The translations under genes were made by a program, and so were the position numbers. A stretch of DNA of 64,000 nucleotides, taken from assembly GCF_014201095.1 (NCBI RefSeq), contig NZ_JACHDN010000001.1:1674001-1738000 (forward strand), written 5' to 3'. Source of the DNA: Cellulomonas hominis (GTDB lineage: Bacteria > Actinomycetota > Actinomycetes > Actinomycetales > Cellulomonadaceae). This document shows, one piece after another, positions 35,391 through 54,290 of this stretch (position 1 is its first letter; each line of letters starts with the position of its first letter). A model generated the notes under the pieces. It did no database searches and was not told the origin of the DNA. It saw nothing but the letters and a program-made list of their open reading frames with translations.

Positions 35391-35447
35391 AACGTAAGCA
35401 GGCCGGAACACCCCGATCCACCGGAACCGGTTGAGGTTCGATGAAAA
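35391..35447 (-). promoter_or_regulatory. lnt promoter with two-component box A
   Basis: On the minus strand TTTTCATCGAA and then CCTCAACCGGT form an 11-bp tandem (about 35426-35447). A TACGTT -10 candidate is at 35396-35391, about 32 bases after the second CTCAACC. The same layout is found at 37530-37586 and at 45740-45795. Confidence 0.6.
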
Positions 35448-36023
35448 GTGCGGGCGCGCCCCCGCCGGCGGGCGATGCCTGCAGCCGCGACATGTGCCTG
35501 GCGAGCGCTCATCCACTCGTCAAGCTTTGGCACCGCCGCGATCGCCGGCTCTGGCGCGAAGCGCCCTAACCCGGTCGGCGACCTCGCGGCCCTTCCACCG
35601 CACCGTCCAAGCCGGTGCATCCGGCACGCGCGCGTCGCGCGGCCCGTCGAGGAACTCGCGCTCGTCGTTCGACGCCACGGTGACTGCGCTGACCCGCAGC
35701 CTCAGCTCGTCGCGCGCCGCAGCCGGCATCCGCTCGCGCTCGGCACTGGCGATCTCGCCACGCGTGTTCGCGCCCAGTCCCTTGCCCTCCCACTTCGGGG
35801 TCTCGGTGACCGTCAGCCGTAGCGGTGCTCGACATCGTTCATGATCCGCTACGACCGGGCCCAGTCGCGGAGCAGGTCAGCCCTCGCCCCTCCCTCGCGC
35901 ACCAGGTTCAGCACGACGTGCACCTGGTCGTTGCCGTTCGCCGAGACCACGTGCAACTCGTCAACGACCGGCACCACGCTCAGTCGACACCCTTGTCGGC
36001 GAGCCGCATCGCCGCGACCTAGT

Positions 36024-37120
36024 TGTACTCGGCCGGGACGTTGATGACGGTGCGGGACCGTTGACGTGAGGAGAACCTCCGGCTGGGGTGTGGCTTGTCG
36101 AAGGCCCACGTCCCGCCGGAGGTTCTCGTGTCTCACGGTAATGCGCGTCTGACTGTCCATGGCCGAGCTCTGCTGGTCCGGCGGGTGATCGAGGGCCATC
36201 GCCCGGTCGCCCACGTCGCCAAGGAACTCGGCGTCTCTCGCCAGTGCGCCCACCGGTGGGTCAATCGGTTCCGCAGCGAGGGACCGGCAGGGCTGGCCGA
36301 CAGGTCCTCACGCCCGCACCGCTCACCGACCCGCACCGATCCCGAGATCGAGCTGGTGGTAGTCCTCGCGCGCCGCGCCCACCGTCGAGGGCCTGCCTGG
36401 CTGGCCGAGCAGACCGGCGTCCCGGCCCGCACGGTCTCGCGGATCCTGGCCCGTCATCGAGTCCCGCACCTGGCCGACTGCGACCCGCTGACCGGCCAAC
36501 CGATCCGAGCCACCCGCCTGACCACGCTGCGCTACGAACGCGAACGACCCGGCGAGCTGGTCCACATGGACGTCAAGAAGATCGGCCGCATCCCGCCCGG
36601 TGGTGGCTGGCGCGCTGGCGGCGGCTGGACCCTGGCCAACCACCAGTCACGCGTGGACAAGACCCCGATCGGCTACGACTACGTGCACGCCCTGATCGAT
36701 GACTGCTCCCGGCTGGCCTACTGCGAGATCCTGCCCGACGAGAAGGGCCCGACCTGCGCGGGCTTCCTGGCGCGCGGCGCGGCCTACTTCGGCGGCTGCG
36801 GCATCGAGCGCATCGAGCGGGTCATGACCGACAACGCCTACGCCTACAGGTACTCGGGCGACCTGCGCGCCGTCGTGGCCGCGCTCGGCGCCCGCCAGGT
36901 GTTCATCAAGCCGCACTGCCCCTGGCAGAACGGCAAGGTCGAACGACTCAACCGGACCCTGGCGACCGAGTGGGCCTACCGGCAGATCTTCACCAGCAAC
37001 GACGACCGCGCCGCCGCTCTTGCTCCCTGGCTCGAGCACTACAACACTCGCAGACCACACATCGCACTCGGCGGACGACCGCCGATCAGCCGACTGTCAC
37101 CAACGTGATGGCCGAGTACA
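36024..37120 (+). mobile_element. IS481-family insertion sequence, 1097 bp
   Basis: The element starts TGTACTCGGCC at 36024 and ends GGCCGAGTACA at 37120, with inverted repeats of about 25 bases (ACGTTG and TGAC also conserved). CCTAGT occurs on both sides (36018-36023 and 37121-37126), a 6-bp target duplication. The single transposase gene is intact. It interrupts a relaxase gene that was probably already decayed. Confidence 0.92.
36128..37108 (+). CDS. IS481-family transposase
   Basis: This 326-residue DDE transposase has an N-terminal HTH (VAHVAKELGVSRQCAHRWVN, FRSEGPAGLADRSSRPH) and the catalytic residues in ELVHMDVKKIGRIP, RVMTDNAYAYR and CPWQNGKVERLNRTL. GTG 36128 is chosen because GGAGG lies five bases upstream. 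The reading frame that starts at 36095 would include the leader. Confidence 0.9.
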   Translation: MSHGNARLTVHGRALLVRRVIEGHRPVAHVAKELGVSRQCAHRWVNRFRSEGPAGLADRSSRPHRSPTRTDPEIELVVVLARRAHRRGPAWLAEQTGVPARTVSRILARHRVPHLADCDPLTGQPIRATRLTTLRYERERPGELVHMDVKKIGRIPPGGGWRAGGGWTLANHQSRVDKTPIGYDYVHALIDDCSRLAYCEILPDEKGPTCAGFLARGAAYFGGCGIERIERVMTDNAYAYRYSGDLRAVVAALGARQVFIKPHCPWQNGKVERLNRTLATEWAYRQIFTSNDDRAAALAPWLEHYNTRRPHIALGGRPPISRLSPT

Positions 37121-37529
37121 CCTAGTCCGCCGCGACCTTGGTCTACGTCTCGTCGCTCAGCCCCTTTCGACCGACGCCGCCGAGGTGGACACGTAGTAGA
37201 CGTGCCCGAGCACCCGCTCGGCAGTGCGCTGCTTTGCGCTGCAGCTGTTCGCCCCACCTCGACTTATGCACCAGTACCTTCGTGCCGAGCACCTTGCGCG
37301 GCAGGTCCAGGCAGTCGCGATCGCCACCGCGTCGTCGAGGCTCAGGTCGCGATCGTGCGACACCGCACCCACCACGGAGTCGTGACCGGCGAGCGCGTGC
37401 GTTCGCCGTCGCGGCCGGGAGCACGACGGGCTGGTCCCGCGCGGCTCATGCGCACGAGGGCGGGGTGCGGTGGTCCCCGTGGCGGCCGAGCGCTCGGATC
37501 CATCGAGAGGGCCGCCACGGGGTGCGTCC

Positions 37530-37586
37530 AACGTAAGCGCCTGGGATCCCGAGTTCGGCCGCCGCCGGTTGAGGTTCGATGAAGAT
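37530..37586 (-). promoter_or_regulatory. Promoter-like copy with two-component box B
   Basis: TCTTCATCGAA and then CCTCAACCGGC on the minus strand (37565-37586) and a TACGTT at 37535-37530 have the same spacing as the lnt promoter. Its downstream side is the decayed relaxase, so its original target may have been lost; a duplication of the lnt promoter region is possible. Confidence 0.5.
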
Positions 37587-37609
37587 CCGTGGCCGGGCGT
37601 CCTCCATGG

Positions 37610-38101
37610 TTACTGATAGACGAAGTTGCTGAAGTAGACGTCGACGACTTCGCCCTCGTACACCTCGGTCAGCTGAGCGGCGAGCTCGCGCTTGAGCGCA
37701 TTCCTGCCCTCAGGCGTGCTGATCTCCTCGACGGGCCGCTGCGAGAACAGCGCAATCGCGAGGTCGAGCGCCTTGACCGTGTCCACGTCCTCGGCGACCT
37801 CGGCGGTCAGCTGTAGTCCTAGCCCGAGACGCAGGTAGCGACCGCCCGCAAGGTTGATGCTGATCGGCTCAACCGCCTGGACGGTACCGAGCTCGACCTT
37901 CATTGGCTCGGCCTCCGACGCTGCACCGGGCCGAAGCAGGAACCAGCCGGCTCCGGCCGCAACAACAAGCGCCCCGACGACCACCAGCCCACGCCTGCCT
38001 CGCTTCTTCGGTACAGGCGCGGGCTCCGGCTCTGTGTGGGTCGACGACGAGCGCTGGCCACCGATCTTGTTGCTGGACCCGACGATCCGTTGTTCGGGCA
38101 T
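37610..38101 (-). CDS. fliL: FliL-family membrane protein
   Basis: This 163-residue protein has a polar N-terminus, one membrane helix (GLVVVGALVVAAGAGWFLL) and an extracellular FliL domain: GGRYLRLGLGLQLTAEV, VKALDLAIALFSQRPVEEIS and VYEGEVVDVYFSNFVYQ. FliL normally supports the flagellar motor, and flagellar genes would usually surround it. None do here. ATG 38101 has GAGGAG six bases upstream; a GTG at 38125 is less likely. It may be a displaced flagellar gene or an island-specific envelope protein with a stomatin-like fold. Confidence 0.82.
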   Translation of the reverse strand: MPEQRIVGSSNKIGGQRSSSTHTEPEPAPVPKKRGRRGLVVVGALVVAAGAGWFLLRPGAASEAEPMKVELGTVQAVEPISINLAGGRYLRLGLGLQLTAEVAEDVDTVKALDLAIALFSQRPVEEISTPEGRNALKRELAAQLTEVYEGEVVDVYFSNFVYQ

Positions 38102-38211
38102 CCGCCCCTCCTCGCTGGTTCGCACCTCGTGTCGTGCAGCGACTGGATCGTCCGGTAGGCGGCTATCGGTGAGCGCCTGCTGATGAAGATCCGGCTAAGC
38201 CCGGCTCGACG

Positions 38212-38886
38212 TCACGGCTCGCGGCGCTCGTGATCGTCGTTCGACGCCCCGAGGTTCCGCCGCCGCAGACGCAGAGCTACGAAGACGAGCACGCCGACCG
38301 CTGCGGCGATCGCGATGAGGACCCCGATCGATGTCGGTCCCCACCGCCAAGTGACCTGCTCCTCCTGAGCCTCGCTCGGCGCCGCGGCGGAGTCGACGGT
38401 CTCCTCGGTGCTCGGAACGGTGGTCTCCTCGATCGGCCCCGGCTCCGGGTGGGTCGATCCGCCGGCCGTCTCTTCCACCCCGGTGTCGGTCGCGGCCGTG
38501 AACGTGAGCTCGCCGGACAGCGGGTGCCCATCAGCGGACGTGACCCGCCACTGGATGACGTAGGCGCCTGCCGGTCGCGCCGCGGCGAGGGTCTGGATGA
38601 CGGCAGTGTCGGCGACCGTCGTCGCACCCTCGCTCACGGTCGTCCCGTCGGGCCCGACGACGGCGACCTCCGTGCCGAGCGCCTGCGGCGGTTCGTTGAA
38701 GGTCAGTGTGACGGCGTCGGGCGCGACGTCGACGGTGGCGCCGTCCGCGGGGTCCGACCCGGTCATGCCGGAGTGCGCCGACGCAGGGGCCACGGACAGG
38801 GCCAGGGCACCGGTGGCCAGCACCGGGACGAGCAGCAGGCGGGACAGCAAGGACCGTCGCCGGTTCGGCGCGGGGGCGTGGGACAT
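38212..38886 (-). CDS. copC: CopC-domain copper-binding protein with C-terminal anchor
   Basis: This 224-residue exported protein has a signal peptide that ends at ASA before HSGM, so the mature chain starts with histidine, the usual Cu(II) ligand of CopC. ADGATVDVAPDAVTLTFNEP and TSADGHPLSGELTF supply the family pattern, with the Asp-Gly-His ligand region. A proline/threonine-rich linker and a membrane helix (SIGVLIAIAAAVGVLVFVAL) anchor it to the cell. ATG 38886 has GAGAGG six bases upstream. It is downstream of ctaG, in an M23-tlpA-ctaG-copC order, and would supply or buffer copper for the oxidase assembly factor. Confidence 0.88.
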   Translation of the reverse strand: MSHAPAPNRRRSLLSRLLLVPVLATGALALSVAPASAHSGMTGSDPADGATVDVAPDAVTLTFNEPPQALGTEVAVVGPDGTTVSEGATTVADTAVIQTLAAARPAGAYVIQWRVTSADGHPLSGELTFTAATDTGVEETAGGSTHPEPGPIEETTVPSTEETVDSAAAPSEAQEEQVTWRWGPTSIGVLIAIAAAVGVLVFVALRLRRRNLGASNDDHERREP

Positions 38887-38958
38887 GTCGGACCTCTCGG
38901 GTGGTGCGGATGCTGGTGGAGGTGGTTCGAAACGCGGACCCGGCGGGACGGGTGGGCG

Positions 38959-39927
38959 TCAGGTGGGGCGACGGTCGCGCTCGGCGAGCCCCGCCAGGTA
39001 GACGTTGTAGGCGTCGAGCTCGGCGTCGCCGTCCCGGTCGGCGCGACGGTCGCGCAGCGCCGTGCTGACCGTCTCCTCGCGGTGCCAGCGCGACAGCACG
39101 ATCAGCAGCACGATCAGGGTGGGCAGCTCGCCGTAGGACCAGGCCAGCGCGCCTGCGGTCTGCTGGTCGGCGACCAGGTCGACGCCCCAGCCCGCGGGCG
39201 GGTGCCCGAACGCGGCGACGACGGGTGTGGTCGCCATCATGAGCACGACGCCGAAGAACGCGTGCAGGGGCATCTCGACCGCGACGTCCAGCGCGCGACC
39301 CGCGTGCCCCTGGCGTCTCGGCAGCGGGTCGCGCGAGAGCACCGGTGCCGCGAACAGCACGCCCGCCACGAGCAGGGCGACCTCGAGCGCGGTGTGGCCG
39401 ACCCACGAGGACAGGACCAGGCCGGCAGCGTCGGTCAGGTACAGGCCGTAGAAGGCGAGCAGGAACAGCGGCACGGTGACCGCCGGATGCAGGGCTGCGG
39501 CCGCGACCGGTGACCGCAGCGCACGGCGCGCTGAGACCAGGAGCACCCGCCCCGGCCCGCGGTGCGGAGCCGTGTGCAGCAGCAGCGTGCCCGGGCGGCC
39601 GAGCACCAGCAGGGGCGCGACGAACATCATGAGCGTGAGCTGCTGGAACATGAACACGGAGAACATCTCGTACCCGTACCCCTCGACACCGGCCCCGGTG
39701 ACGACCAGCAGCACGACGCAACCGCCCAGGAACGCCAGCGTCCGGCTGAAGGGCCACCGCCGGCCCCGCCTGTGACGCCGGGCGACGCCCACCACGTAGG
39801 CGGCGCCGAGCAGGACGGCGACCACCGGCAGCACCGGGACCGGCTGGATCCACGGCGCGAGATAGGTCGCCAGGCTCGGGGGCGCGGTCGGGATCAGGGC
39901 CGGGCCGGAGAAGTCGGCGGGCAACAT
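38959..39927 (-). CDS. ctaG: Cytochrome c oxidase assembly factor, CtaG (Caa3) family
   Basis: This 322-residue membrane protein has seven or eight helices. GYEMFSVFMFQQLTLMMFVA and HTALEVALLVAGVLFAAPVL are in the order expected for the Caa3_CtaG family, which assembles the copper site of terminal oxidases. ATG 39927 lies 20 bases after the tlpA-like stop; GTG 39978 would overlap that gene and lacks a good ribosome site. The copC gene is 72 bases downstream. Confidence 0.85.
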   Translation of the reverse strand: MLPADFSGPALIPTAPPSLATYLAPWIQPVPVLPVVAVLLGAAYVVGVARRHRRGRRWPFSRTLAFLGGCVVLLVVTGAGVEGYGYEMFSVFMFQQLTLMMFVAPLLVLGRPGTLLLHTAPHRGPGRVLLVSARRALRSPVAAAALHPAVTVPLFLLAFYGLYLTDAAGLVLSSWVGHTALEVALLVAGVLFAAPVLSRDPLPRRQGHAGRALDVAVEMPLHAFFGVVLMMATTPVVAAFGHPPAGWGVDLVADQQTAGALAWSYGELPTLIVLLIVLSRWHREETVSTALRDRRADRDGDAELDAYNVYLAGLAERDRRPT

Positions 39928-39946
39928 CACGCGTCGCCTGCTGGTC

Positions 39947-40534
39947 TCACGGCGCACCGGCTTCGTCGACGACGTCACCGACCACGGCGTCCAGGGTGGA
40001 GTCTTCGGCGAGCCCGACGATACGGGCGGCGACGCGCCCCTGACGGTCGAGGACGACGGTGGTGGGGACAGCCTGCAGGGGCACGGTCCCTGACAGGGCG
40101 CTCACCGCGGTGCCGGTCGAGTCGTCGATCGACGGGTACGGGATGTCGAAGGTGCGCTCGAACGCCAGTGCCGCGCCGGCGGCGTCCTCGACGTTGATCC
40201 CCAGCAGCCGCACTCCCTCGTCCGCGCGGTCTCGAGCGAGCGCCGCGAGGGTCGGCGCCTCAACGCGGCACGGCGGGCAGGCTGCGTACCAGGTGTTGAG
40301 CACGACGACATCGCCGGCCCAGTCCGCGGTGTCGACCTGGTCGCCCTGGTAGGTCGTGCCGGTGACCGCCACAGGCTCGCCCCGCTCGTCGCGCTCCCAC
40401 GTCTGCACGCTGCCGTCGCCGGAGACGTACCCCTGGCCGGGGACGGTCGCGCCCGTCGTCGACGACGGGCTGCAGGCGGCGAGGGCCAGCACCGCGGTCG
40501 CGATCAGCCCCGCGGCGCGGCATGTGCCGCGCAC
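39947..40534 (-). CDS. TlpA/ResA-like thioredoxin lipoprotein
   Basis: This 195-residue protein has a lipobox LAAC with the modified cysteine at 21 and a thioredoxin domain with the active site TWYAACPPCRVEAP (C86-x-x-C89). LLGINVEDAAGAALAFERTF and VPTTVVLDRQGRVAARIVG are standard TlpA segments. It would reduce disulfides outside the membrane, for example in apocytochrome c or copper sites, with electrons from CcdA. The GTG at 40534 is eight bases after GGGGAGG; the GTG at 40543 overlaps the M23 stop but abuts the ribosome site. It lies between the M23 and ctaG genes. Confidence 0.87.
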   Translation of the reverse strand: MRGTCRAAGLIATAVLALAACSPSSTTGATVPGQGYVSGDGSVQTWERDERGEPVAVTGTTYQGDQVDTADWAGDVVVLNTWYAACPPCRVEAPTLAALARDRADEGVRLLGINVEDAAGAALAFERTFDIPYPSIDDSTGTAVSALSGTVPLQAVPTTVVLDRQGRVAARIVGLAEDSTLDAVVGDVVDEAGAP

Positions 40535-40539
40535 CCCGT

Positions 40540-41886
40540 TCACCTCCCCAGCAGCGGTGCCGGGTCGACGGTGGAGCCGTTGACGTAGACCTCGAAGTGC
40601 AGGTGGCACGCCCCGGACAGCCCGGTGTTGCCGGAGTAGCCGATGAGGTCGCCCTGGCGGACCTGCTGGCCCGCGGAGACGACGGACCGGGTCATGTGGT
40701 TTGAGCTGCTCATCATGGGCTGCCCGTTCACGGTGCCGTAGTTGAGCATCACCTGGTTGCCGAACCCGTTGCGCCACTGCGCCCACTGCACGGTCGCGTC
40801 GCGGGGGGCGTAGAGCGGGGTGTTGCAATAGGTGCGCAGGTCGATCCCGGCGTGCAGGCGGGTGTAGCCCAGGATCGGGTGCAGCCGCATGCCGTAGTTC
40901 GAGGTGACGTACATCGGGTTGATCGAGGTGGGGTTGGCGAAGATCGCCCCGGACCCCGACGAGGGCGGAGGAGGGGCTGCGGGACCGGGCGCCGCGGGCT
41001 GGTTCGCCGCCGCCGCGGCCTCGGCCTGCCGGCGCTGCTCGGCGATGATCCCCGCGAGCTCGCTCTCCAGCGCGCCGCGTTCACGCTCCGCCTGCGCCTG
41101 CTCGGCCTCGGCCTGCGCCTTCATGCCGGCCAGCCGCTGCTGGCTCGCTCGCTGATCGGTGATCAGCTGCTCGATCTCCTGCTCGCGGGTGGCCGCTGCT
41201 GCTCGGGCCTGGTCCGCGACGGCGACCTCCTCGTCCGCCTCCACCTTGAGGTCGGCGATGCGGTCGGTGACCGCGACGAGCCGGGCCTCGGCCTGGCGAG
41301 CTTCCCCGGCGAGCCGCGCCAGCTCGTCGACCATCTCCGACTGAGCCCGTTGAGCGGCGGCGGCAGCCTGGTAGCGGCGGTTGAAGTCGTCCAGGTCCTG
41401 GGCGTCCAGGACCACGGCGAGGGGGGACACCTCGCCGCCGTTCTGGTACGCCTGGCGCGCCAGCTGCCCGACGCTGGCCCGCACCTCCTCGCCGCGGGTG
41501 GCGGACTCGGCGACCTGCGCGGTGATGCGCTCCTGCTGCTCGATGGCGTCCGTGAGCCGGGCCTGGACGAGCGCCGCCCCGCGCTCGGCACCGGCCAGCT
41601 CGTCCTGCGCGGCCTTCAGCTCGGCCTGCGCGGCCGGGAGCCGGGCCTCAGTCGCCGCGAGGTCGCTGACCGCCTGGGCGAGCTCGGCGGAAAGCCCCTC
41701 GACCGACGCCTGCAGGTCGTCGGAGCGCTGCTGCGCGGCGTCCGCGCGTTCCTGCGCGGCCCGGCGCCGGTCGTCCAGGTCGTCGGCGGACCCGGTGACC
41801 GGGGCGACCGAGACCAGCACGGCGGCGGCGACCAGCGTGGCGATCAGGCGCCTCCAGGCGCGGACGGGACGGAGGGCGGGGCGCAT
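40540..41886 (-). CDS. Secreted M23 peptidase with coiled-coil domain
   Basis: The 448-residue protein has a signal peptide (LIATLVAAAVLVSVAPVTGS), a long coiled coil of about residues 35-290 and a C-terminal LytM/M23 domain. YGMRLHPILGYTRLHAGIDL gives the HxxxD zinc site and CHLHFEVYVNG the second histidine site, so the peptidase should be active. It resembles EnvC-like and actinobacterial peptidoglycan hydrolases that remodel the wall. ATG 41886 follows GACAGGAATCCCGC. It is first in the operon with the tlpA-like gene, ctaG and copC. Confidence 0.88.
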   Translation of the reverse strand: MRPALRPVRAWRRLIATLVAAAVLVSVAPVTGSADDLDDRRRAAQERADAAQQRSDDLQASVEGLSAELAQAVSDLAATEARLPAAQAELKAAQDELAGAERGAALVQARLTDAIEQQERITAQVAESATRGEEVRASVGQLARQAYQNGGEVSPLAVVLDAQDLDDFNRRYQAAAAAQRAQSEMVDELARLAGEARQAEARLVAVTDRIADLKVEADEEVAVADQARAAAATREQEIEQLITDQRASQQRLAGMKAQAEAEQAQAERERGALESELAGIIAEQRRQAEAAAAANQPAAPGPAAPPPPSSGSGAIFANPTSINPMYVTSNYGMRLHPILGYTRLHAGIDLRTYCNTPLYAPRDATVQWAQWRNGFGNQVMLNYGTVNGQPMMSSSNHMTRSVVSAGQQVRQGDLIGYSGNTGLSGACHLHFEVYVNGSTVDPAPLLGR

Positions 41887-41921
41887 GCGGGATTCCTGTC
41901 GTGGGGCACGAGGGCGCGACC

Positions 41922-41987
41922 ACCGTAGGTCGGGGCGGCCACTGTGCGACCGGGGCGCGGGCGCGCCTTCAGCGTTCCTTCATCTGG
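41922..41987 (-). promoter_or_regulatory. M23 operon promoter with two-component box D
   Basis: CCTTCAGCGTT and CCTTCATCTGG (plus strand, 41966-41987) are an 11-bp tandem overlapping the kinase stop codon. A TACGGT -10 candidate on the minus strand is at 41927-41922, 38 bases further toward the M23 gene. Confidence 0.55.
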
Positions 41988-43119
41988 GGCTCGCCGCGGC
42001 GCTGCGGCTGCGTCGGACCGGGAGTCGGAGGGTGAACGTCGCGCCCTGCCCGGTGCCGGGGCTGGCGGCGTCCAGCGAGCCGTCGTGGGCCTCGGCGAAT
42101 GCCTTGCTCACGGTCAGCCCGATCCCTGACCCGCCGTGGTCGCGGTCCCGGGCGGTGTCGGCGCGGTAGAACCGGTCGAACACGTGGGACAGGTGCTCCG
42201 CAGCGATGCCGTCCCCGGTGTCGTGCACCGCGATGGCCACGGCGTCGCGCTCGGCGCGCACGCGCACGACGACGGCGGCCCCGCGGTCGCTGTGCCGCAG
42301 CGCGTTGTCGAGGAGATTCGCCAGGACCTGCCCGATCCGGTCACGGTCGACGCTGACGGCGGGGACCCGGACCGCGGCGTCGACCTGCAGGTAGACGCCC
42401 TTGGCGGCGAACGCGGGGTTCGCGGCCGCGGCCGCCGCCCGCACCAGGTCCTCGGGTGCGGCGTCGGCGAGCCGCAGGGGCAGGCGTCGCTCCTCGGCCA
42501 GCGAGACCGCCGAGACGTCCTCGGCGAGCCGGCTGAGGCGGTCGACCTGGTCGCGCAGCACCTGCAGCGTCGCCGCGTCCGGATCCCGCAGTCCGTCCTC
42601 GATCGAGTCGACGTACACGGTCAAGGTCGCCAGCGGCGTGCGCATCTCGTGCGCCAGGTCCGCCAGGAGCCGGCGGCGGGTGCCGTCGACGTGCTCGAGA
42701 CGCTCGGACATCGCGTTCATCGCGGTCGCGACGTCGTCGAACTCGGCGCCCAGACCCGGCACCGGGACCCGGCGGTCGTACACCCCACGGGCCACGCTCC
42801 CGGCCGCGGTGACGATCGGCTGCAGCGAGCGGGTCACCCGGCCGGCGATCCAGATGCTCAGGGCCGACGACACGAGGAGGGCCAGCAGCAGGGCAGCCGC
42901 GAGCGAGACGCTCCCGGCCGTGCCGAACGCGGCCTCGGCGTGCTCGGTCGCGTCGTCGGACGCGTCCTCGTTGTGCTGGAGCAGGTTCTCGTGGAAGATC
43001 CCCGGCCCGATCACCCACGCGACCGCGCCGGCGGTCGCGACGGTGACCACGATGACCGCCCAGAGCGCGACGCTCAGCCGGAGGGCGACGCCCCACCGGC
43101 GCCAGGGCGCGCGGCTCAT
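41980..43119 (-). CDS. Two-component sensor histidine kinase
   Basis: This 379-residue kinase has two membrane helices (about 14-36 and 70-92) flanking a short acidic, histidine-containing extracellular loop, a HAMP domain, the dimerisation box LADLAHEMRTPLATL with H157, and the ATPase motifs NLLDNALRHS, DTGDGIA and GGSGIGLTVSKAF. The extracellular loop of about 33 residues is too small for a classic sensor domain, so it may sense the membrane or a partner. ATG 43119 overlaps the response regulator stop as ATGA. Confidence 0.92.
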   Translation of the reverse strand: MSRAPWRRWGVALRLSVALWAVIVVTVATAGAVAWVIGPGIFHENLLQHNEDASDDATEHAEAAFGTAGSVSLAAALLLALLVSSALSIWIAGRVTRSLQPIVTAAGSVARGVYDRRVPVPGLGAEFDDVATAMNAMSERLEHVDGTRRRLLADLAHEMRTPLATLTVYVDSIEDGLRDPDAATLQVLRDQVDRLSRLAEDVSAVSLAEERRLPLRLADAAPEDLVRAAAAAANPAFAAKGVYLQVDAAVRVPAVSVDRDRIGQVLANLLDNALRHSDRGAAVVVRVRAERDAVAIAVHDTGDGIAAEHLSHVFDRFYRADTARDRDHGGSGIGLTVSKAFAEAHDGSLDAASPGTGQGATFTLRLPVRRSRSAAASPR

Positions 43120-43817
43120 CCGTCGCCCAGCTGGTAGCCGATGCCGCGCACGGTCCGCACGAACCGCTGGGTGGCGGCGTCGTCGCCGAGCTTGCGGCGC
43201 AGATGCAGCACGTGCACGTCGATCAGGCTCTCGTCGCCGAACCAGTTCTCCCCGCGCAGCGCCTCGATCAGCGCCCGCCGGGTCATGGCGGTCCCGGCGT
43301 TGTCGAGCAGGCACGCCAGCAGGTCGAACTCGGTCGGCGTCAGATCGATCAGGGCCCCCGCCAGCGTCACCTCGCGGCTGCGCAGGTCCACCACCAGGGC
43401 GCCCACCTCGCGGGTGGGTGGGGCGAGCGGCCCGGGGGTGCGGGCGCGACGCAGCAGCGTGCGGACCCGCGCGAGGAGCTCACGCGGCCGGAACGGCTTG
43501 GTCATGTAGTCGTCCGCCCCTGAGCGCAGCCCCTGCAGCACCTCGGTCTCATCGGCGCGGGCGGTGAGCATCACGACGTAGGCGTCGGAGAACTCCCGCA
43601 GCTGCCGGCAGACCTCGATGCCGTCGACCGTGGGCAGCCCGAGGTCGAGGACGACGACGTGCGGGGCGATCGACCGGGCCGCCTCCAGCGCGCGGGCCCC
43701 GTCGCCGACCACGGCCACGTCGTACCCGTCGGCGCGCAGGTAGTCGCCGATGACGGCGGCGAGCACGCTCTCGTCCTCGACGACCAGGACGCGCACGCGG
43801 TCCGTCTCAGTGGGCAT
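43116..43817 (-). CDS. OmpR-family response regulator
   Basis: The 233-residue protein has a receiver domain with D58 as phosphorylation site (VVVLDLGLP), acidic residues in VEDES and K107 in YMTKPF, and a C-terminal winged helix with LTPTEFDLLACLLDNAGTAM and VLHLRRKLGDDAATQRFVRT. It should bind tandem 11-bp half-sites, the spacing expected for OmpR-type dimers. One such pair (43878-43899) lies 61 bases upstream, and six more occur only in this island. ATG 43817 is chosen by alignment to the receiver start. Confidence 0.93.
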   Translation of the reverse strand: MPTETDRVRVLVVEDESVLAAVIGDYLRADGYDVAVVGDGARALEAARSIAPHVVVLDLGLPTVDGIEVCRQLREFSDAYVVMLTARADETEVLQGLRSGADDYMTKPFRPRELLARVRTLLRRARTPGPLAPPTREVGALVVDLRSREVTLAGALIDLTPTEFDLLACLLDNAGTAMTRRALIEALRGENWFGDESLIDVHVLHLRRKLGDDAATQRFVRTVRGIGYQLGDG

Positions 43818-43877: not shown

Positions 43878-43899
43878 CCTTCATCGGAACTTCACCGCG
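43878..43899. promoter_or_regulatory. Two-component box E, upstream of the regulator operon
   Basis: CCTTCATCGGA and ACTTCACCGCG form an 11-bp tandem 61 bases upstream of the response-regulator start, overlapping the end of the methyltransferase gene. It suggests autoregulation. No clear -10 is seen in this case. Confidence 0.5.
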
Positions 43900-45690: not shown

Positions 45691-45739
45691 GTGGCGATGC
45701 TACGGGCTAGGGGCGGTCTCCGACCAGGACCATCGGGAG

Positions 45740-45795
45740 TCTTCATCGAATCTCAATCTCGGTCGGCGGATGGGCACCACGGGCTCGCCTAGCGT
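45740..45795 (+). promoter_or_regulatory. dsbA promoter with two-component box F
   Basis: TCTTCATCGAA (45740-45750) and TCTCAATCTCG (45751-45761) precede TAGCGT at 45790-45795 by about the same distance as at lnt. The ATG at 45804 is eight bases after the -10, so the mRNA is close to leaderless. Confidence 0.6.
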
Positions 45796-45803: not shown

Positions 45804-46511
45804 ATGAGGACCGACGCCGCCGCCGCGAACGCCCCGACACCGCTGAGCCCGCGCATGCGCAGCGCGCTGATCGCGGGCGCGCTGGTAGTCATCGCCACCA
45901 CCGGCGTGCTGGTCTACGCGCTCGCCACCGGGCCGCGCGGGCTGGCACCGGAGCAGCAGGACGGCGCGCTGCCCGCGACCCGCACCGACTCGCACGTGCT
46001 GGACGAGGCGGGCCCGGACGCACCGACGCTGGTCGAGTTCATGGACTTCGAGTGCGAGGCGTGCGGCGCCTTCTACCCCGTCGTGGAGCAGATCCGCGAG
46101 CAGTACGCCGGTCGGATCAACTACGTCATCCGCTACTTCCCGATCGCGAGCCACGCCAACGCCATGAACGCGGCGCTGGCCGTCGAGGCCGCCGCGCAGC
46201 AGGGCCAGGTCGAGGACATGTACCACCGGATGTTCGAGACCCAGGCCGAGTGGGGCGAGCAGCAGACCTCGCAGGCGGACCTGTTCCGCTCGTTCGCCGA
46301 GGACCTCGGGCTCGACCTGGACACCTACGACGACGCGATCGCGGACCCCTCGACCCAGGAGCGGGTGCAGCAGGATCTCGACGACGGGCAGGCGCTCGGC
46401 GTGCAGGGCACCCCGACGTTCTACCTCGACGGTGAGCGCCTCGAGCTGAGCAGCGTCCAGGACCTGACCGACGCCCTGGACCGCGCCCTCGACGCGTCGG
46501 GCAGCGCGTGA
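45804..46511 (+). CDS. DsbA-like membrane-anchored thiol oxidase
   Basis: This 235-residue protein has an N-terminal helix (SALIAGALVVIATTGVLVYA) and an extracellular thioredoxin domain with an inserted helical part, as in DsbA. The active site is FECEACGAF with C84-x-x-C87, and GVQGTPTFYLDGERL has the cis-proline. It should introduce disulfides in exported proteins. The next gene, VKOR, overlaps it and would reoxidise it. Confidence 0.9.
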   Translation: MRTDAAAANAPTPLSPRMRSALIAGALVVIATTGVLVYALATGPRGLAPEQQDGALPATRTDSHVLDEAGPDAPTLVEFMDFECEACGAFYPVVEQIREQYAGRINYVIRYFPIASHANAMNAALAVEAAAQQGQVEDMYHRMFETQAEWGEQQTSQADLFRSFAEDLGLDLDTYDDAIADPSTQERVQQDLDDGQALGVQGTPTFYLDGERLELSSVQDLTDALDRALDASGSA

Positions 46512-47143
46512 CCGCGGTCGCCACGACGCCCGGCACCGTGCTGTTCGAGCCCCGTGCGGCCGAACGGCGGCGCGCGATCGCGGTGACCGCCCTGGCCGCC
46601 ATCGGGCTCGCCGCGGCGATCGCCCTGCTCCTCGAGCGGTTCGCGATCCTCGAGGACCCCACCCACGTCCCGAGCTGCACGCTGAACCCGATCCTGTCCT
46701 GCACCTCGGTGATGGCGTCGGACCAGGCGTCGGTGTTCGGGTTCCCCAACCCGCTGATCGGCGTCGTGGGCTTCACCGTGGTCCTGACCGCGGGTGCGAG
46801 CATGCTCAGCGGCGCCCGCCTCGGGGAGTGGTTCTGGCTCGGCCTGCAGGCCGGCGTGACCTTCGGCGCGGTCTTCGTGCACTGGCTGGCGTTCCAGAGC
46901 CTCTACCGGATCGGTGCCCTGTGCCCGTACTGCCTGGTCGTGTGGGCCGTCATGATCCCGCTGTTCTTGTCGGTCACGCTGCGCAACCTCCAGCGCTGGC
47001 AGCTGTCCCTGCCGCGACCCGCCCGGTCGGCGCTCGCCGTCGCGGTGGACTACCGCTCGACCATCCTCACCGTCTGGTACCTCGCGATCACCCTGCTCGC
47101 GGTCCAGCGGTTCTGGTCGTACTGGTCGACCCTCCTACCGTGA
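46508..47143 (+). CDS. VKOR-family quinone-linked thiol oxidoreductase
   Basis: This 211-residue membrane protein has four helices, the CPYC active site (C139-C142) and the loop cysteines C57 and C65 in SCTLNPILSCT. GFPNPLIGVVGFT has the conserved quinone-site region. It reoxidises the DsbA-like partner and passes electrons to quinone; the pair replaces DsbB in actinobacteria. GTG 46508 overlaps the DsbA stop as GTGA. Confidence 0.92.
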   Translation: MTAVATTPGTVLFEPRAAERRRAIAVTALAAIGLAAAIALLLERFAILEDPTHVPSCTLNPILSCTSVMASDQASVFGFPNPLIGVVGFTVVLTAGASMLSGARLGEWFWLGLQAGVTFGAVFVHWLAFQSLYRIGALCPYCLVVWAVMIPLFLSVTLRNLQRWQLSLPRPARSALAVAVDYRSTILTVWYLAITLLAVQRFWSYWSTLLP

Positions 47144-47172: not shown

Positions 47173-47192
47173 TACAGCGAGGGCTGTACTGT
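47173..47192. promoter_or_regulatory. cmtR promoter and operator
   Basis: TACAGC (47173-47178) and GCTGTA (47183-47188) are an inverted pair that overlaps the -10 candidate TACTGT (47187-47192). GTG 47200 is seven bases later, so the mRNA is probably leaderless. The arrangement fits a repressor that blocks its own promoter. Confidence 0.55.
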
Positions 47193-47199
47193 TCAGCCC

Positions 47200-47604
47200 G
47201 TGCTGACCAGTTCCTCGCGCATCGACGTCTTCACCCGCCTGGGCCGGGCCATGGCCGACCCCAGCCGCGCGCGGATCCTGGCCGCTCTCACCGACGGCCC
47301 GGCCTACCCCGCCGAGCTCGCGGACGTCCTGGGGATGACGCGCTCGAACGTCTCGAACCACCTCGCGTGCCTCCGGGGTTGCGGGCTCGTGCTCGCCGAG
47401 ACCGAGGGGCGCCGCACGAGGTACGCGATCGCCGACGCGCACCTCGCGCACGCGCTGACCGCCCTCGTCGAGGTGGTCCTCGCCGTCGACGACGGCACGC
47501 CGTGCGCGAACGACACGTGCGACGTACCGGGATGCTGCGCGGACTGCGACCCCGGGCCGGCCGCGCGGGTAATCGGCGACGACCGGATCGAGGTGCGCGC
47601 ATGA
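47200..47604 (+). CDS. cmtR: CmtR-type Cd(II)/Pb(II)-sensing repressor
   Basis: The 134-residue protein closely follows the mycobacterial CmtR pattern: RLGRAMADPSRARILAALTD, LGMTRSNVSNHLACLRGCGL and a DGTPCAND cysteine in the tail. The two cysteines in the CLRGC helix and the later cysteine are the known metal ligands of CmtR. The extended C-terminus has five more cysteines (CDVPGCCADCD), which could be another metal site. The gene overlaps the ATPase gene as ATGA, and it should repress that operon until metal binds. Confidence 0.88.
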   Translation: MLTSSSRIDVFTRLGRAMADPSRARILAALTDGPAYPAELADVLGMTRSNVSNHLACLRGCGLVLAETEGRRTRYAIADAHLAHALTALVEVVLAVDDGTPCANDTCDVPGCCADCDPGPAARVIGDDRIEVRA

Positions 47605-50464: not shown

Positions 50465-50479
50465 CGAGGGGCGCCCGAA

Positions 50480-50501
50480 CCTTCAGCAGACCTTCATCGG
50501 C
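50480..50501. promoter_or_regulatory. Two-component box G
   Basis: CCTTCAGCAGA (50480-50490) and CCTTCATCGGC (50491-50501) are a near-perfect 11-bp tandem just after the ccdA stop and about 80 bases before the methyltransferase-like gene. No clear -10 is seen at the expected distance. Confidence 0.5.
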
Positions 50502-50581
50502 GAACGGGTGCTTCTCGCACCGATCCCGCGCAGGCGGCGGCGATGCTGCAAGGGCACAACCGCGGCGAGCCTGGAGGTCCT

Positions 50582-51517
50582 GTGAGCCGAGACGGGCGCC
50601 GTCCCGACGTCCTGCGTTGGCTCGACACCGAACCGACGCTCGACGAGCTGCGCCGGGTGTTCCCCCACGAGTGGGAGGACGTGCAGACGCGCCTGTCCGC
50701 CGCCGCGGAGGACGGTGAGACCGCGCTGCACGCCCTGGTCGCGGAGCTGAGCGCCCCCAGGGTCGGATCGCCCGACCACCGCCGCAGGAAGGACGACCTG
50801 GTCGCCGACGAGGTCCGCCGGCAGATGCTCCTGCACGCCGTCCAACGTGCCGCGTTCACGGCCGAGGCCGGCGTCGACCGGTCCGAGATCGCGTTCGACC
50901 GGCTCAACGGTCAGATCCTGCAGCGGCTGTTCTTCCGGCGCGGGCTGGAGCGCAAGCCCGTCTCGACGCTCGCGTACACGCTGCTGTGGCCGCTCGCGCG
51001 CCAACGCCGGTACGTCATGCCCCTGGTCCGCCCGCGCGGGGTGTACTGCTTCTACTCGGCGGCCCTCGTGCGCAGGCTCGCGAAGCTGATCGGCTCGCGC
51101 GAGACCCTCGAGATCGCCGCCGGCGACGGGACGCTCAGCCGGTTCCTGCGCCAGCGAGGTGTCGACGTCGTCGCGACCGACAACCACAGCTGGGCACGAT
51201 CCATCGACTACCCCGACGACGTCGTCCGCCAGGACGCCGTCGCAGCCCTGCGCGCCCGCCGCCCCCAGGTCGTGGTGTGCTCCTGGCCTCCCGTCGGCAA
51301 CGCGTTCGAGCGCGAGGTGTTCCGTACCCCGAGCGTCCAGACCTACATCGTCATCGGCAGCACCCGCGAGACCGGCAGCGGGAACTGGTTCGACTACCGG
51401 CGCCAGACCGGGTTCACCTACGTCCGGGACCTCTCCATGGGCCGGCTCGTGCTCCCGCGGTACCAGGGCAACGCGGTGCTGATCTTCCAGCGCCGCGCCG
51501 CGGTGACGGGCTCCTGA
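50582..51517 (+). CDS. Methyltransferase-like protein
   Basis: The last 180 residues of this 311-residue protein have a Rossmann methyltransferase start: TLEIAAGDGTLSRFLRQRGV, then VVATDNHSWARS and VVVCSWPPVGN. The N-terminal half is helical and not recognised. SAM binding is likely; the substrate is unknown. GTG 50582 has GGAGG four bases upstream; ATG 50543 is in frame. It follows box G and takes the place between ccdA and ccsB where resB is usually found. Confidence 0.65.
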   Translation: MSRDGRRPDVLRWLDTEPTLDELRRVFPHEWEDVQTRLSAAAEDGETALHALVAELSAPRVGSPDHRRRKDDLVADEVRRQMLLHAVQRAAFTAEAGVDRSEIAFDRLNGQILQRLFFRRGLERKPVSTLAYTLLWPLARQRRYVMPLVRPRGVYCFYSAALVRRLAKLIGSRETLEIAAGDGTLSRFLRQRGVDVVATDNHSWARSIDYPDDVVRQDAVAALRARRPQVVVCSWPPVGNAFEREVFRTPSVQTYIVIGSTRETGSGNWFDYRRQTGFTYVRDLSMGRLVLPRYQGNAVLIFQRRAAVTGS

Positions 51518-51609
51518 AGGCCGCCGGTGCCCGAGACCGACAGCGCCCGCGCACCCGCCGTCGGGGAGATCCCTCCCCGGGGCGGCACCACGACCTCGGG
51601 AGGCGACCT

Positions 51610-51939
51610 GTGCCCGCCGCGCTGAGACGAGACGCCCGGACCCACCTGCGGGCGGCGGGTTCGCTCGCTGCCACGGGTCTGCTCCTGGTGCTGTCCGTCC
51701 TGCCCGCCGACAGGTCGCGGGCGGTCGAGGTGCCCCCTTCGCCCGCGGCGACCGAGAGCGCCGACCCCGGCAGAATTGTGCCGACCACCGAGCCCACGCC
51801 CGAGACCGCGCCCGCGGCGGCCGATCGGCTGCCGTTCGACCTGCGGTGGGCGCTCGTCGGCCTCGGCATGGCCGCGATCGCGGCCGCGCCCTCGGCCGTC
51901 CTGCACCGGCGCGACCGCCCGCCCCGCTCGCGCGACTAG
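51610..51939 (+). CDS. Small exported membrane protein, 109 residues
   Basis: It has a signal-like N-terminus (AAGSLAATGLLLVLSVLPAD), a proline/threonine-rich stretch and a C-terminal helix (ALVGLGMAAIAAAPSAVLHR) followed by a basic tail. GTG 51610 has GGGAGG six bases upstream. No family is recognised; it may be a wall-spanning accessory protein. Confidence 0.55.
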   Translation: MPAALRRDARTHLRAAGSLAATGLLLVLSVLPADRSRAVEVPPSPAATESADPGRIVPTTEPTPETAPAAADRLPFDLRWALVGLGMAAIAAAPSAVLHRRDRPPRSRD

Positions 51940-51962
51940 CACCGGGAGCACGGCCCCGACCG

Positions 51963-52208
51963 TCACCGTCGACGGCGCAGGTACCAGATCCGCGTCCCGG
52001 TCGAGCAGACGAACAGCACGACGACCCCAGCGGCCGTCGAAGCGAGGCTGCTCGTCAGGACGCCGGTGAGGGTCAGGGCGCCGCCCGCGACGAGCGCCAC
52101 GACGATCAGGACGATCGCAGAACGGTCGTCCTGCGGGAGCCGACGCCGGTCCGGCACGGCGCGACCCTCGCGTGGACCGCGACGCGGTGGCAGCAGCGGG
52201 CGGCGCAC
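51963..52208 (-). CDS. Small membrane protein after ccsB
   Basis: This 81-residue protein has two hydrophobic helices (AIVLIVVALVAGGALTLTGV, AGVVVLFVCSTGTRIWYL) between basic ends. GTG 52208 is four bases after the ccsB stop, so it is probably translated by coupling. No function is apparent. Confidence 0.5.
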   Translation of the reverse strand: MRRPLLPPRRGPREGRAVPDRRRLPQDDRSAIVLIVVALVAGGALTLTGVLTSSLASTAAGVVVLFVCSTGTRIWYLRRRR

Positions 52209-52211
52209 GCG

Positions 52212-53225
52212 TCAGATGCCCGAGTAGGAGTGCTTGCCGTTGATGAACAGGTTCACCACCGTGAAGTTCGCGATCACGACGGCATACCCGACGTACACCA
52301 GGAAGGCTGCGCGTCGCCCCTGCCAACCCCGCGTGGTCCGCGCGTGCAGGTACGCCGCGTACACCACCCAGGCGACGAAGGTCGCGACCTCCTTGGGGTC
52401 CCAGCCCCAGTACCGGCCCCACGCCTGCTCGGCCCAGATCGCCCCACCGATCAGCGTGAGCGTCCACAGCACGAACGCGATCGCGTTCAGCCGGAACGAC
52501 AACGCCTCGAGCCGGACCGCGGTCGGCACCGTGCGCAGCCACGACCACGCCGGCCCGGTGATCCGCCACCTTCGCAGCGAACGCCGCAGCTCGTCGCCCG
52601 CGCGCCACGGGCGGTCCAGCCGCGACCGTCCCGACTCGCGGGCGTCCTGCAGGACCTGCAGCACCGACGTCGCGAACGCGACCGTGAAGATCCCGGTCGC
52701 CACGACCGCGATGCTCACGTGGATCACCAGCCAGTAGCTCTGCAACGCCGGCTGCACCGCGTCCGCCCGCAGGTAGAACGAGTTCTGCGCCACGATCAAC
52801 GCCAGCACGGCGATGCCGGTGACCAGCACCCCGACGAAGGGAACCGTGCGCGTGCGCCGCACCCCGAGGAACACCAGCGCGGCCACGAGGATCCCGAAGA
52901 TCGTGAACTCGTACATGTTCGCGGTCGGCCACCTGCCCGCCGCCACCCCGCGCAGCGCCACACCGGCCAGCAGCAGCGCGGTCGCCACGGTCGCCGTCGA
53001 CCGCGCGATGCCGGCCGCCCGCCCGCCCGGCACAGACGGTGCCGGGTCCTGCGAGGCAGGCGCGTCAGCGCCCCCGGCTCCGGCCCCGACCGCTGCGAGA
53101 CGGCGCTGCGAGCGGGCCGAGGCGTCGGCGACCCGGGCGAGCGCGGCGGAGTACGCCACCAGGGCGATGGTGTACGCCGTCACCGCTCCCCACACGAGCA
53201 GCGTGCTGAGGTCTCCGAGGGGCAC
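52212..53225 (-). CDS. ccsB: Cytochrome c biogenesis protein CcsB/ResC
   Basis: This 337-residue protein has eight helices and the haem-handling WWD motif WAEQAWGRYWGWDPKE near residue 265, with histidines flanking it. CcsB normally works with ResB to export haem and attach it to apocytochrome c. Here ResB is not in the window, although ccdA and a TlpA-like gene are. GTG 53225 is the start. The gene follows nlpC by five bases, so both may be under the c-di-AMP riboswitch. Confidence 0.9.
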   Translation of the reverse strand: MPLGDLSTLLVWGAVTAYTIALVAYSAALARVADASARSQRRLAAVGAGAGGADAPASQDPAPSVPGGRAAGIARSTATVATALLLAGVALRGVAAGRWPTANMYEFTIFGILVAALVFLGVRRTRTVPFVGVLVTGIAVLALIVAQNSFYLRADAVQPALQSYWLVIHVSIAVVATGIFTVAFATSVLQVLQDARESGRSRLDRPWRAGDELRRSLRRWRITGPAWSWLRTVPTAVRLEALSFRLNAIAFVLWTLTLIGGAIWAEQAWGRYWGWDPKEVATFVAWVVYAAYLHARTTRGWQGRRAAFLVYVGYAVVIANFTVVNLFINGKHSYSGI

Positions 53226-53230
53226 GCCGG

Positions 53231-54022
53231 TCAGCCGATCCGGATGAACAGCGGATCGGACTGCCAGATCTCGCGGATCTGCACGGACTTGCCCGGAACG
53301 GGGGCGTCGACCTGGAGGTTCCCGCCGGCGTAGATCGCGATGTGACCCGGCGACCAGATCAGGTCACCCGGCTGCGCCTGATCCCGGGGCACGACCGTGC
53401 CGGCGTCCCGCTGCGCAGTCGAGGTCCGCGGGATCGCGATCCCGACCTGGGCGTAGACGTATGACGTGAACCCCGAGCAGTCGAAGCCGGACGGGGTCGT
53501 GCCGCCGTACACGTACGGGACGCCGACCAGGCCCGACGCGACCTCGACGACGGCGCTGCCGTTCGCGGACGCCGGAGGCGGTGCGCCGATCGGCGCGGTC
53601 TCGGCCGGCTCGGCAGCCTCGTCGCGCTGGCTGCCGCGCGATGCGGCTCCGTCGGTCGACCGGGCGGGCGGCTCCTCGATAACGGGCGGCGGAGGGGGCG
53701 GGAGGATCGCGGTCGCGGCCGGGACGTCGAACGACCAGGTGGCCTCCGCCGGCGCGACCGCCGACGGTGCGGCGGTGGCCAGGGCCCGCGCCGCATCCAG
53801 GGCTCGCACGTCGATCGATTCGGCAGCCCGGCTCGGCGAGGGTGCGGCCGAGGCGGGGACGGTGGAGAGAGAGACGGCGAGTCCCGAGGTAGCAACGACC
53901 GCGCCGGTGCGCCGACCCCAGACGACAGCGGTCGCCCGGGCGTTCGTGCCGGCGTCGGTGAGCGGCGTACGAGCGCGACCGGGGTTGCGATGACGCGAGG
54001 GGGCACGCAGGTGTGTGGGCAT
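53231..54022 (-). CDS. NlpC/P60 peptidoglycan hydrolase
   Basis: This 263-residue exported protein has a signal region (AVVATSGLAVSLSTVPASAA), a proline-rich linker and a C-terminal NlpC/P60 domain. The catalytic cysteine is in GFDCSGFTSYVYAQVG (about C182), the histidine in SPGHIAIYAGG (about H227), and both are intact. It should cut peptidoglycan stem peptides. A c-di-AMP riboswitch lies in the leader. ccsB follows five bases after its stop. Confidence 0.9.
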   Translation of the reverse strand: MPTHLRAPSRHRNPGRARTPLTDAGTNARATAVVWGRRTGAVVATSGLAVSLSTVPASAAPSPSRAAESIDVRALDAARALATAAPSAVAPAEATWSFDVPAATAILPPPPPPVIEEPPARSTDGAASRGSQRDEAAEPAETAPIGAPPPASANGSAVVEVASGLVGVPYVYGGTTPSGFDCSGFTSYVYAQVGIAIPRTSTAQRDAGTVVPRDQAQPGDLIWSPGHIAIYAGGNLQVDAPVPGKSVQIREIWQSDPLFIRIG

Positions 54023-54036
54023 GCGGAGCTCCTGGT

Positions 54037-54200
54037 CGCCTGCGAGGTGAGCTGTCGGGTTCGGACGGAGCCGTCCGGCCGGTCTCGTGGATCGGCTTCA
54101 CCCCGAGGGCGCCTGAGCGCCCGTGGAACCTGGGTCCCCCGCTCCTGCCACGCGACGTCGACGGGCCGGACGGCGGCAGGACTCGGCATCCGCGCGGCTC
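54037..54200 (-). promoter_or_regulatory. c-di-AMP (ydaO-yuaA) riboswitch
   Basis: On the minus strand, conserved segments occur in the right order: GCCGAGTCCTGCCGCC, then CAGGAGCGGGGGACCCAGG, GGGGTGAAGCCG and CGAACCCGACAGCTCACCTC followed by GCAGGCG. This is the ydaO-yuaA consensus. In actinobacteria it often precedes cell-wall hydrolase genes, and here it ends 15 bases before nlpC. Ligand binding would turn expression off in known examples. Confidence 0.9.
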
Positions 54201-54225
54201 CCGGACTGAACGTCCGGATCTGATG

Positions 54226-54290
54226 ACGGTAGGCGTCGCGTCGCCAGATCGGCGCCCGCGCGGCGGTCCCTTCAGCAAACCTTCATGGAC
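54226..54290 (-). promoter_or_regulatory. nlpC riboswitch promoter with two-component box H
   Basis: CCTTCAGCAAA and CCTTCATGGAC (54269-54290, plus strand) are an 11-bp tandem. A TACCGT -10 on the minus strand is at 54231-54226, 37 bases away, the same geometry as box D. The region also lies upstream of the exchanger on the other strand. Confidence 0.55.

Follow-up and report, generated by a model that had tools for sequence, protein, structure and literature searches.

Clustered boxes in a metal and envelope island of Cellulomonas hominis as predicted operators of a CopR-type response regulator

The two-component system CopRS of Corynebacterium glutamicum responds to copper, and the target of its regulator CopR is TGAAGATTTgaTGAAGATTT, from -59 to -78 relative to copR, the single genomic site reported (PMC3140484). 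Copper also touches lipoprotein biosynthesis: copper operons of Listeria carry the copper-inducible gene lit2, and in Escherichia coli, Lnt depletion and cutE have been linked to copper effects (PMC7387801). Here, we describe seven tandem boxes in a 64,000-base stretch of the Cellulomonas hominis genome (the window; bases 1674001-1738000 of the 4,489,147-base contig NZ_JACHDN010000001.1), which lie beside the genes of a response regulator and histidine kinase and among genes for the envelope, redox reactions, and metals. The boxes are read as predicted operators of a CopR-type regulator of the OmpR family, the window pair as a CopSR-type system, and the whole as a copper-type regulon with an envelope arm, a reading drawn from sequence comparison to which we assign a probability of about 0.8. 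The boxes are very likely landing sites for a regulator of the copper-sensing type, and the lnt, M23/NlpC, and DsbA-VKOR genes are probably under metal control.

All seven boxes reported in the first-pass annotation were found, 1-3 bases from the positions it gave. Each consists of two 7-base units with an 11-base period, of the type CTTCATC-N4-CTTCATC, the second unit being CTCAAYC in three boxes. One form, CTTCATC-GAAY-CTCAAYC, occurs at 37567, at 45741, and, starting with T instead of C, at 35429, and the other, CTTCAKC-N4-CTTCAYS, at 41967, 43879, 50481, and 54270. A weight matrix built from the seven boxes scores them at 24.5-28.5 (18.9-25.7 when each is left out in turn); no other match in the window exceeds 15.2, and 0.65 matches of at least 14 per 64 kb arise in first-order Markov sequence. 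On the minus strand, TTTCATCGAACCTCAACC (35429..35446, matrix score 26.8) precedes lnt, with a -10-like TACGTT at 35391-35396, and CTTCATCGAACCTCAACC (37567..37584, 27.8), with TACGTT at 37530-37535, is a duplicate of the lnt-promoter box. The other five are on the plus strand. The box CTTCAGCGTTCCTTCATC (41967..41984, 24.5) is antiparallel to M23-tlpA-ctaG-copC-fliL and has a -10-like TACGGT at 41922-41927 on the minus strand, while CTTCATCGGAACTTCACC (43879..43896, 25.7) is antiparallel to the regulator gene, with a box-to-ATG gap of 61 bases. Between the divergent arsR-CDF-PEMT and dsbA-VKOR genes lies CTTCATCGAATCTCAATC (45741..45758, 28.5), with TAGCGT at 45790-45795 (plus strand) and TAGCAT at 45697-45702 (minus strand). 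The box CTTCAGCAGACCTTCATC (50481..50498, 26.5) has ccdA on one side and a methyltransferase-like gene (50582-51517) on the other, and CTTCAGCAAACCTTCATG (54270..54287, 26.6) is antiparallel to nlpC, with TACCGT at 54226-54231 on the minus strand.

Six further copies of the island (G199, G188, G181, G109, G198, and G188b, the last a second copy in G188) show that this placement is conserved. A box precedes the regulator and M23 genes in all six, and lnt in five, the exception being G109, whose 40-kb stretch contains no lnt. DsbA is preceded by a box in 6/6, where a single box in G198 stands before lnt-dsbA-VKOR and is counted for both lnt and DsbA. The nlpC box recurs in five copies, including G198, where a gene without assignment and then ccsA follow, and the 50481-type box in four (G199, G188, G181, and G188b). 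A weak box, CTTAGCCGGATCTTCATC, also lies between copC and fliL at 38182-38199 on the minus strand (matrix score 15.2), and G181 and G188b carry a better version of it at this position (19.1).

The boxes at 35429 and 37567 seem to descend from a single fliL-box-lnt promoter that was duplicated, and the window is therefore counted as six independent sites and one duplicate; all of the sites listed at first pass are real, but they are not seven independent ones. At this spot, G199, G181, and G188b each have a single box, and G188 has two copies with a distance of 1,033 bases between them; the corresponding distance in the window is 2,138 bases. There, the stretch between the promoter copies (35450-37530) holds an IS481-type insertion sequence (IS) element and decayed-looking sequence, which the box at 37567 now faces. 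The transposase gene of the element (36185..37108, plus strand) matches Pfam rve_3 (2.3e-21) and LZ_Tnp_IS481 (1.1e-11). By eye, parts of the intervening stretch resemble a decayed plasmid relaxase; one 93-aa piece of it had no match in Pfam.

The boxes had been described as absent outside 35-54.3 kb, which is correct for the window and incorrect for the genome, where two further loci carry them. An 18-base consensus searched through the whole genome with up to three mismatches gave 13 matches, all in three loci (6 in the window island, 5 at 2.126-2.150 Mb, and 2 at 2.793 Mb), and none for the reversed control. A class-1 pattern, also with up to three mismatches, gave seven matches, one of which (3,727,944) falls outside the three loci, and again none for the reversed control. 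In three further stretches of the same genome, matrix matches of at least 20 number four in L023, two in L024, and three in L025; since two of those in L025 overlap in one three-unit tract, the genome holds 15 box tracts at this score, including those of the window. Among 20 evenly spaced 20-kb background stretches (400 kb, 8.9% of the genome), there were no matrix matches of at least 16 and two of at least 15. The regulon had been proposed on the understanding that matches equally common elsewhere would speak against it, and in the genome consensus searches and the 400-kb matrix scan the strong outside matches lie at two further metal loci.

These scans bear on the view that the boxes reflect chance or coding bias, that is, a frequent GC-rich word resembling a motif. 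The loosest pattern, with 12 fixed bases, lends it something: searched exactly, it has five genome matches (three in the window and one in each of the other loci), and with one mismatch it has ten, eight of them outside the three loci, against three for the reversed control. At matrix level, this view is refuted by the window, genome-consensus, and background scans, with nothing at 16 or above in the 400 kb. Placement points the same way in a set of 78 loci, comprising the window, L023-L025, 72 homologue loci (L097-L168), and the plasmid regions L197 and L199, in which L097 and L118, and likewise L114 and L123, repeat the same contig. Only 7 of the 201 boxes of at least 20 in this set fall inside predicted genes, three of these in an over-long predicted regulator start, gene predictions and starts having been made with a simple codon-position script of our own. 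Chance is hence a scarcely credible explanation.

At the second locus lies a paralogous copper island, which encodes an M23 peptidase, a YibE/F-type protein, Lgt, a regulator and kinase, a glutaredoxin, CcdA, a redoxin, DUF305, Lnt, a CopA-type ATPase, a CsoR-type protein, NlpC with a riboswitch, and a multicopper oxidase, several of these names coming from the reading of translations and from an annotated plasmid relative. Its regulator and kinase share 56 and 47% identity with those of the window (BLASTP), and its own lnt has no box of at least 20 within 450 bases of the start. The third locus consists of DUF326 (Csp-like) and DUF305 genes. A relative of the second island lies on a 110-kb Cellulomonas plasmid (L197, NZ_CP081863.1) near annotated MobC and relaxase genes, the plasmid being typed as non-mobilizable. 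The coordinates agree with those of contig 2 of G198, which is therefore probably the strain that carries this plasmid. The islands that bear the proposed regulon look mobile.

The window regulator (43116..43817, minus strand) is a response regulator of the OmpR type, 47% identical to C. glutamicum CopR, and the kinase (41980..43119, minus strand), with HAMP, HisKA, and HATPase domains, is 45% identical to CopS over 366 aa. The CopR and CopS sequences used for these comparisons are those of genome G656, in which the exact CopR word stands at the published distance before genes for a regulator of 240 aa and a kinase of 399 aa; G656 is taken to be C. glutamicum itself or a close relative because the protein lengths and kinase loop agree with those given in a review (PMC3353115). 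In the 18-kb cop region (L220), the top match of the window matrix is the CopR site (22.2, with the next match at 15.1), in the same orientation to the regulator as in the window, and the five window boxes compared with this site are identical to it at 13-14 of 18 bases. With up to one mismatch, the CopR word has no match in 394 genomes of the class; with up to two, a search of a Corynebacterium-type genus found it in 98/242 genomes, against 10/242 for the reversed control. In a quick regulator tree (92 rows, midpoint root), the window, second-island, and CopR regulators fall under one node with a Shimodaira-Hasegawa-like approximate likelihood ratio test (SH-aLRT) support of 99, which does not include the eight other regulators of the C. 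hominis genome. The presence of the box changes 10 times on this tree, compared with a mean of 27.9 for shuffled labels, and none of 500 shuffles was as low. Two other assignments of the regulator were rejected: MtrA (NCBIfam NF040689) gives its best NCBIfam score, yet at 217.8 bits against a cut-off of 300, and the proteobacterial CzcR/SilR/CopR family (TIGR01387) reaches 154.9 bits against a curated cut-off of 279.2. The CopR-type nature of the box, the second regulator pair with the same box, and the two duplicate boxes had all been missed at first pass.

The sensor loop of the kinase separates this system from CutRS of Streptomyces, the first candidate in view of dsbA-VKOR and the peptidases. 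Disulfide and cell-wall genes do resemble targets of CutR, such as a cell wall amidase (PMC12802291). The published CutR motif is TAWATAAA, which is in none of the seven boxes, and CutS has two conserved sensor Cys (PMC12802291), whereas no Cys occurs in any of 78 aligned kinase loops (70 of them distinct), the short, His-bearing loop of the window kinase included. A CutRS-like secretion-stress or redox system was thus rejected on the published motif and Cys-based sensor and is judged very improbable here. The loop of the family follows GPxLFHxH[LM]...HxExA[FY], with Pro and Phe in 78/78 rows and the three His in 56, 74, and 75 of 78. Compared with the CopS type, the window loop keeps the first and last His, has Asn in place of the second, and contains no Met.

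Box and regulator also occur together across genomes. Among 200 genomes of the family (box, up to two mismatches; regulator, E of 1e-65 or better, set from the gap within the genome itself), the box was found in 76 and the regulator in 68, with 64 genomes holding both, 4 the regulator only, 12 the box only, and 120 neither (Fisher 1e-34; the counts were made by hand from tables, and genomes of one genus are not independent). A search with the second-island regulator gave at least 80 loci in named genomes, several of them near-duplicates, 52 at 54% identity or more and 28 at 50% or less. Directly before the regulator, a box of at least 17 stands in 33/52 close loci, always on the opposite strand and 45-151 bases from the start of the match; the 28 distant loci have no antiparallel box there and one weak match on the other strand. 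Anywhere in the locus, such a box is found in 50/52 close loci vs. 4/28 distant ones. In the 78-locus set, regulator and box are antiparallel in 46/46 pairs (45 loci). The company of the regulator differs likewise: a copper ATPase is nearby in 30/52 close loci, a multicopper oxidase in 26/52, and DUF305 in 23/52, each against 0/28 distant loci. The lnt, lgt, M23, and NlpC genes are not general neighbors of the regulator family, with 3, 6, 3, and 7 of the 52 close loci, respectively, against 0/28 each (Fisher 0.55, 0.086, 0.55, and 0.090).

The idea of an OmpR-type two-component regulon with envelope, redox, and metal functions, as first put forward, thus gains support from the clustering of the boxes in the genome, the co-occurrence, the antiparallel regulator box, the conserved islands, and the match to the experimentally proven CopR site. 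Its predicted link to the regulator at 43116, originally a surmise, has strong comparative support from co-occurrence, the 46/46 antiparallel pairs, the CopR-site match, and the identities to CopR and CopS.

Some further observations concern the homologue loci. The commonest box target outside the named reference set is a protein of ~80 aa (31 cases in 27 loci, including L121; 30 in the direction of the box), which has no Pfam match and may be of the kind annotated as a SHOCT protein beside the multicopper oxidase in L199. In L120, L128, L140, and L141, the regulator promoters contain overlapping matches 11 bases apart, amounting to three tandem units. A contig titled Vibrio cholerae strain 35D (L170, L175) contributes two regulators that nest among Arthrobacter, and the record is probably mislabeled or contaminated. 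A protein search with the plasmid regulator of Corynebacterium halotolerans returned, among the best 120 of 3,967 matches, named organisms of Kocuria or Nesterenkonia and none named CopR.

Promoter-like elements accompany most of the window boxes, at distances of 32 (lnt), 31 (37567), 31 (dsbA), 38 (arsR), 38 (nlpC), and 39 bases (M23); no TANNNT was seen in the sequence inspected beyond 43879 on the regulator side or beyond 50481. A TANNGT element had been placed about 31-32 bases beyond the lnt, 37567, and dsbA boxes, for which the distances are right; the form fits TAGCGT at dsbA, the other two elements being TACGTT. Similarly, a TACNGT had been given at 37-38 bases from the reversed boxes, which agrees with TACCGT before nlpC and misses TACGGT before M23 by one base. 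Across the loci, 18 of the 24 TANNNT found in the direction of the box are at 31/32 and 42/43 bases (145 boxes), and 18 of the 21 found against it are at 27, 37/38, and 48-50 bases (94 boxes), the preferred offsets being spaced in steps of one repeat unit. Binomial values for these offsets are descriptive only because the offsets were picked after the counts had been seen, and related loci enter the counts more than once. At least 121 of the 145 boxes lack a TANNNT in the box direction within the first 56 offsets.

From these features, a mechanism can be proposed. Excess extracytoplasmic metal, most likely copper, would cause the kinase to phosphorylate the regulator, a dimer of which would read the direct heptamer repeats, set one helical turn apart, head to tail. 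Once phosphorylated, the regulator would occupy the boxes, which lie a short way upstream of promoters, and switch on both its own operon and the genes around it. The regulon would then extend over three loci, namely the window island, the paralogous copper island, which has a CopRS-type pair of its own, and the Csp/DUF305 locus, with the window arm adding lnt, M23, NlpC, DsbA-VKOR, TlpA/CtaG/CopC, and CcdA/CcsA functions. Copper is likely the ancestral signal because copper ATPase, multicopper oxidase, and DUF305 genes neighbor the regulator family and because CopRS is published as responding to copper.

Several observations weigh against this reading. The matrix rests on seven window sites that include two copies of one promoter box, and the SH-aLRT 99 node is wider than the box-bearing set: of its 76 further rows, 34 have a box and 42 have none, and 23 of these 42 form one clade (support 93). 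Twelve genomes of the survey have the box without a regulator at the cut-off, 19/52 close homologues lack a box of at least 17 directly before the regulator, and the C. halotolerans plasmid homologue, 54% identical to the second-island regulator, has no such box in its 25-kb region. The branch of the window regulator is long (1.47). In the window kinase, Asn replaces the second His of FHxH, a residue present in 74/78 aligned kinases, and the ligand or signal of this kinase may therefore have changed. The window also carries genes resembling those for Zn/Cd transport and sensing (CDF, ArsR, and a P-type ATPase). In another explanation, the boxes chiefly serve the second-island regulator and the window pair is a diverged copy answering to another signal, such as envelope or thiol damage or Zn/Cd. 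The same box type does stand before both regulator genes; the loop FHxNLLQH, with an extra His four residues on, was present in 7/7 window-type copies seen, vs. FHxH in most of the family; and window-type regulators (75-100% identity) occur in 6 of the 68 regulator-positive genomes, all six with a second match at 58-59%. On the other side, an antiparallel box of its own is conserved at the window regulator, which also retains the DVHVLHLRRKLG recognition-helix region, and we consider this explanation doubtful.

A bolder elaboration of the CopR-type reading is that two paralogous CopRS-type pairs make use of a common operator code, with the second-island arm detoxifying copper and the window arm, in whose kinase a conserved sensor His has been exchanged, rebuilding the envelope through Lnt/Lgt triacylation of lipoproteins, M23/NlpC cutting of peptidoglycan, and disulfide and cytochrome c assembly, and that nlpC would join metal and, through a riboswitch, cyclic di-AMP (c-di-AMP) signals. 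This division of labor is speculative and, on balance, unlikely as a whole; if true, it would make copper-driven lipoprotein remodeling convergent in Actinobacteria and Firmicutes.

The genes beside the boxes were assigned from domain matches. On the minus strand are lnt (apolipoprotein N-acyltransferase, 33695..35299; Pfam LNT_N 7.9e-30, CN_hydrolase 2.1e-18), a FliL-family protein (37610..38125; Pfam FliL 2.3e-16), a CopC-like protein (38212..38886; NCBIfam copper_CopC 2.8e-18), a CtaG-like membrane protein (38959..39978; caa3_CtaG 1.4e-6), a TlpA/ResA-like thioredoxin protein (39947..40543; ResA 4.5e-14), and an M23 peptidase with a long N-terminal region (40540..41886; MepM 5.7e-18), the last four matches being below the NCBIfam cut-offs. 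The paralogue of this peptidase (L023:601-1914) matches Pfam Peptidase_M23 at 4.4e-23. On the plus strand, a DsbA-like thioredoxin-fold protein (45804..46511; NCBIfam NF041057 4.6e-18, DsbA 8.9e-6) is followed by a VKOR-family protein (46508..47143; VKOR 3.7e-12), all three matches again below cut-off, as is that of the methyltransferase-like gene to Methyltransf_23 (only 2.3e-4). Farther on, a CcsA/ResC-like cytochrome c assembly protein (52212..53225, minus strand; Pfam Cytochrom_C_asm 1e-41) neighbors an NlpC/P60 hydrolase (53231..54022, minus strand; Pfam 2.5e-23). The nlpC leader holds a c-di-AMP (ydaO/yuaA) riboswitch (54029..54163, minus strand; Rfam RF00379, 42.2 bits, gathering score 38), which follows the box and its -10-like element. 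The order box-riboswitch-NlpC is repeated in the second island (L024, 59.2 bits) and on the Cellulomonas sp. C5510 plasmid (L197, 64.7 bits); in L106 (65.1 bits), riboswitch and box also precede NlpC, the box in opposite orientation.

If the CopR-type reading is correct, metal stress would be tied to lipoprotein acylation and wall remodeling, which raises the question of whether copper alters the acyl form of lipoproteins in an actinobacterium. By title, the literature searched held no paper on copper, two-component systems, and lipoproteins in Cellulomonas, none on copper resistance with apolipoprotein N-acyltransferase in actinobacterial genomic islands, and none on Lit2-copper-lipoprotein operons in Actinobacteria, published CopR-type regulons of other genera being searched no further. 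Within reach of CopR-type boxes are lnt (the window and 5/6 islands) and lgt (8/78 loci, two of them the same contig). In E. coli, lnt formerly went by the name cutE. Lipoprotein N-terminal acylation is tied to copper both here, by prediction, and in Listeria (lit2) and E. coli (lnt) (PMC7387801), but there the enzyme (Lit2) or the regulation is another, whereas here actinobacterial lnt and lgt come with a CopR-type box; by analogy, the parallel may be an independent one. CutRS is likewise an envelope two-component system with cell-wall targets and differs in its motif, TAWATAAA, and its Cys-based sensor, CutS (PMC12802291). The closest likeness is to CopRS, with an OmpR-type regulator, a direct repeat at an 11-bp period, a HAMP kinase with a short His-bearing loop, altered in the window at the second His, and copper ATPase and multicopper oxidase genes as common neighbors in the regulator family. 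The TGAAG-N6-TGAAG repeat before copR has its counterpart in the window box at 43879, in the same orientation and ~60 bp from the start. CopR is known with a single genomic site, whereas the same operator code here would describe a multi-locus regulon, with 15 tracts in three loci, two regulator pairs, and lnt, lgt, M23, NlpC, and DsbA-VKOR among the box neighbors. Relative to CopRS, what is new is best read as the size of the regulon, the presence of two pairs, and the envelope arm.

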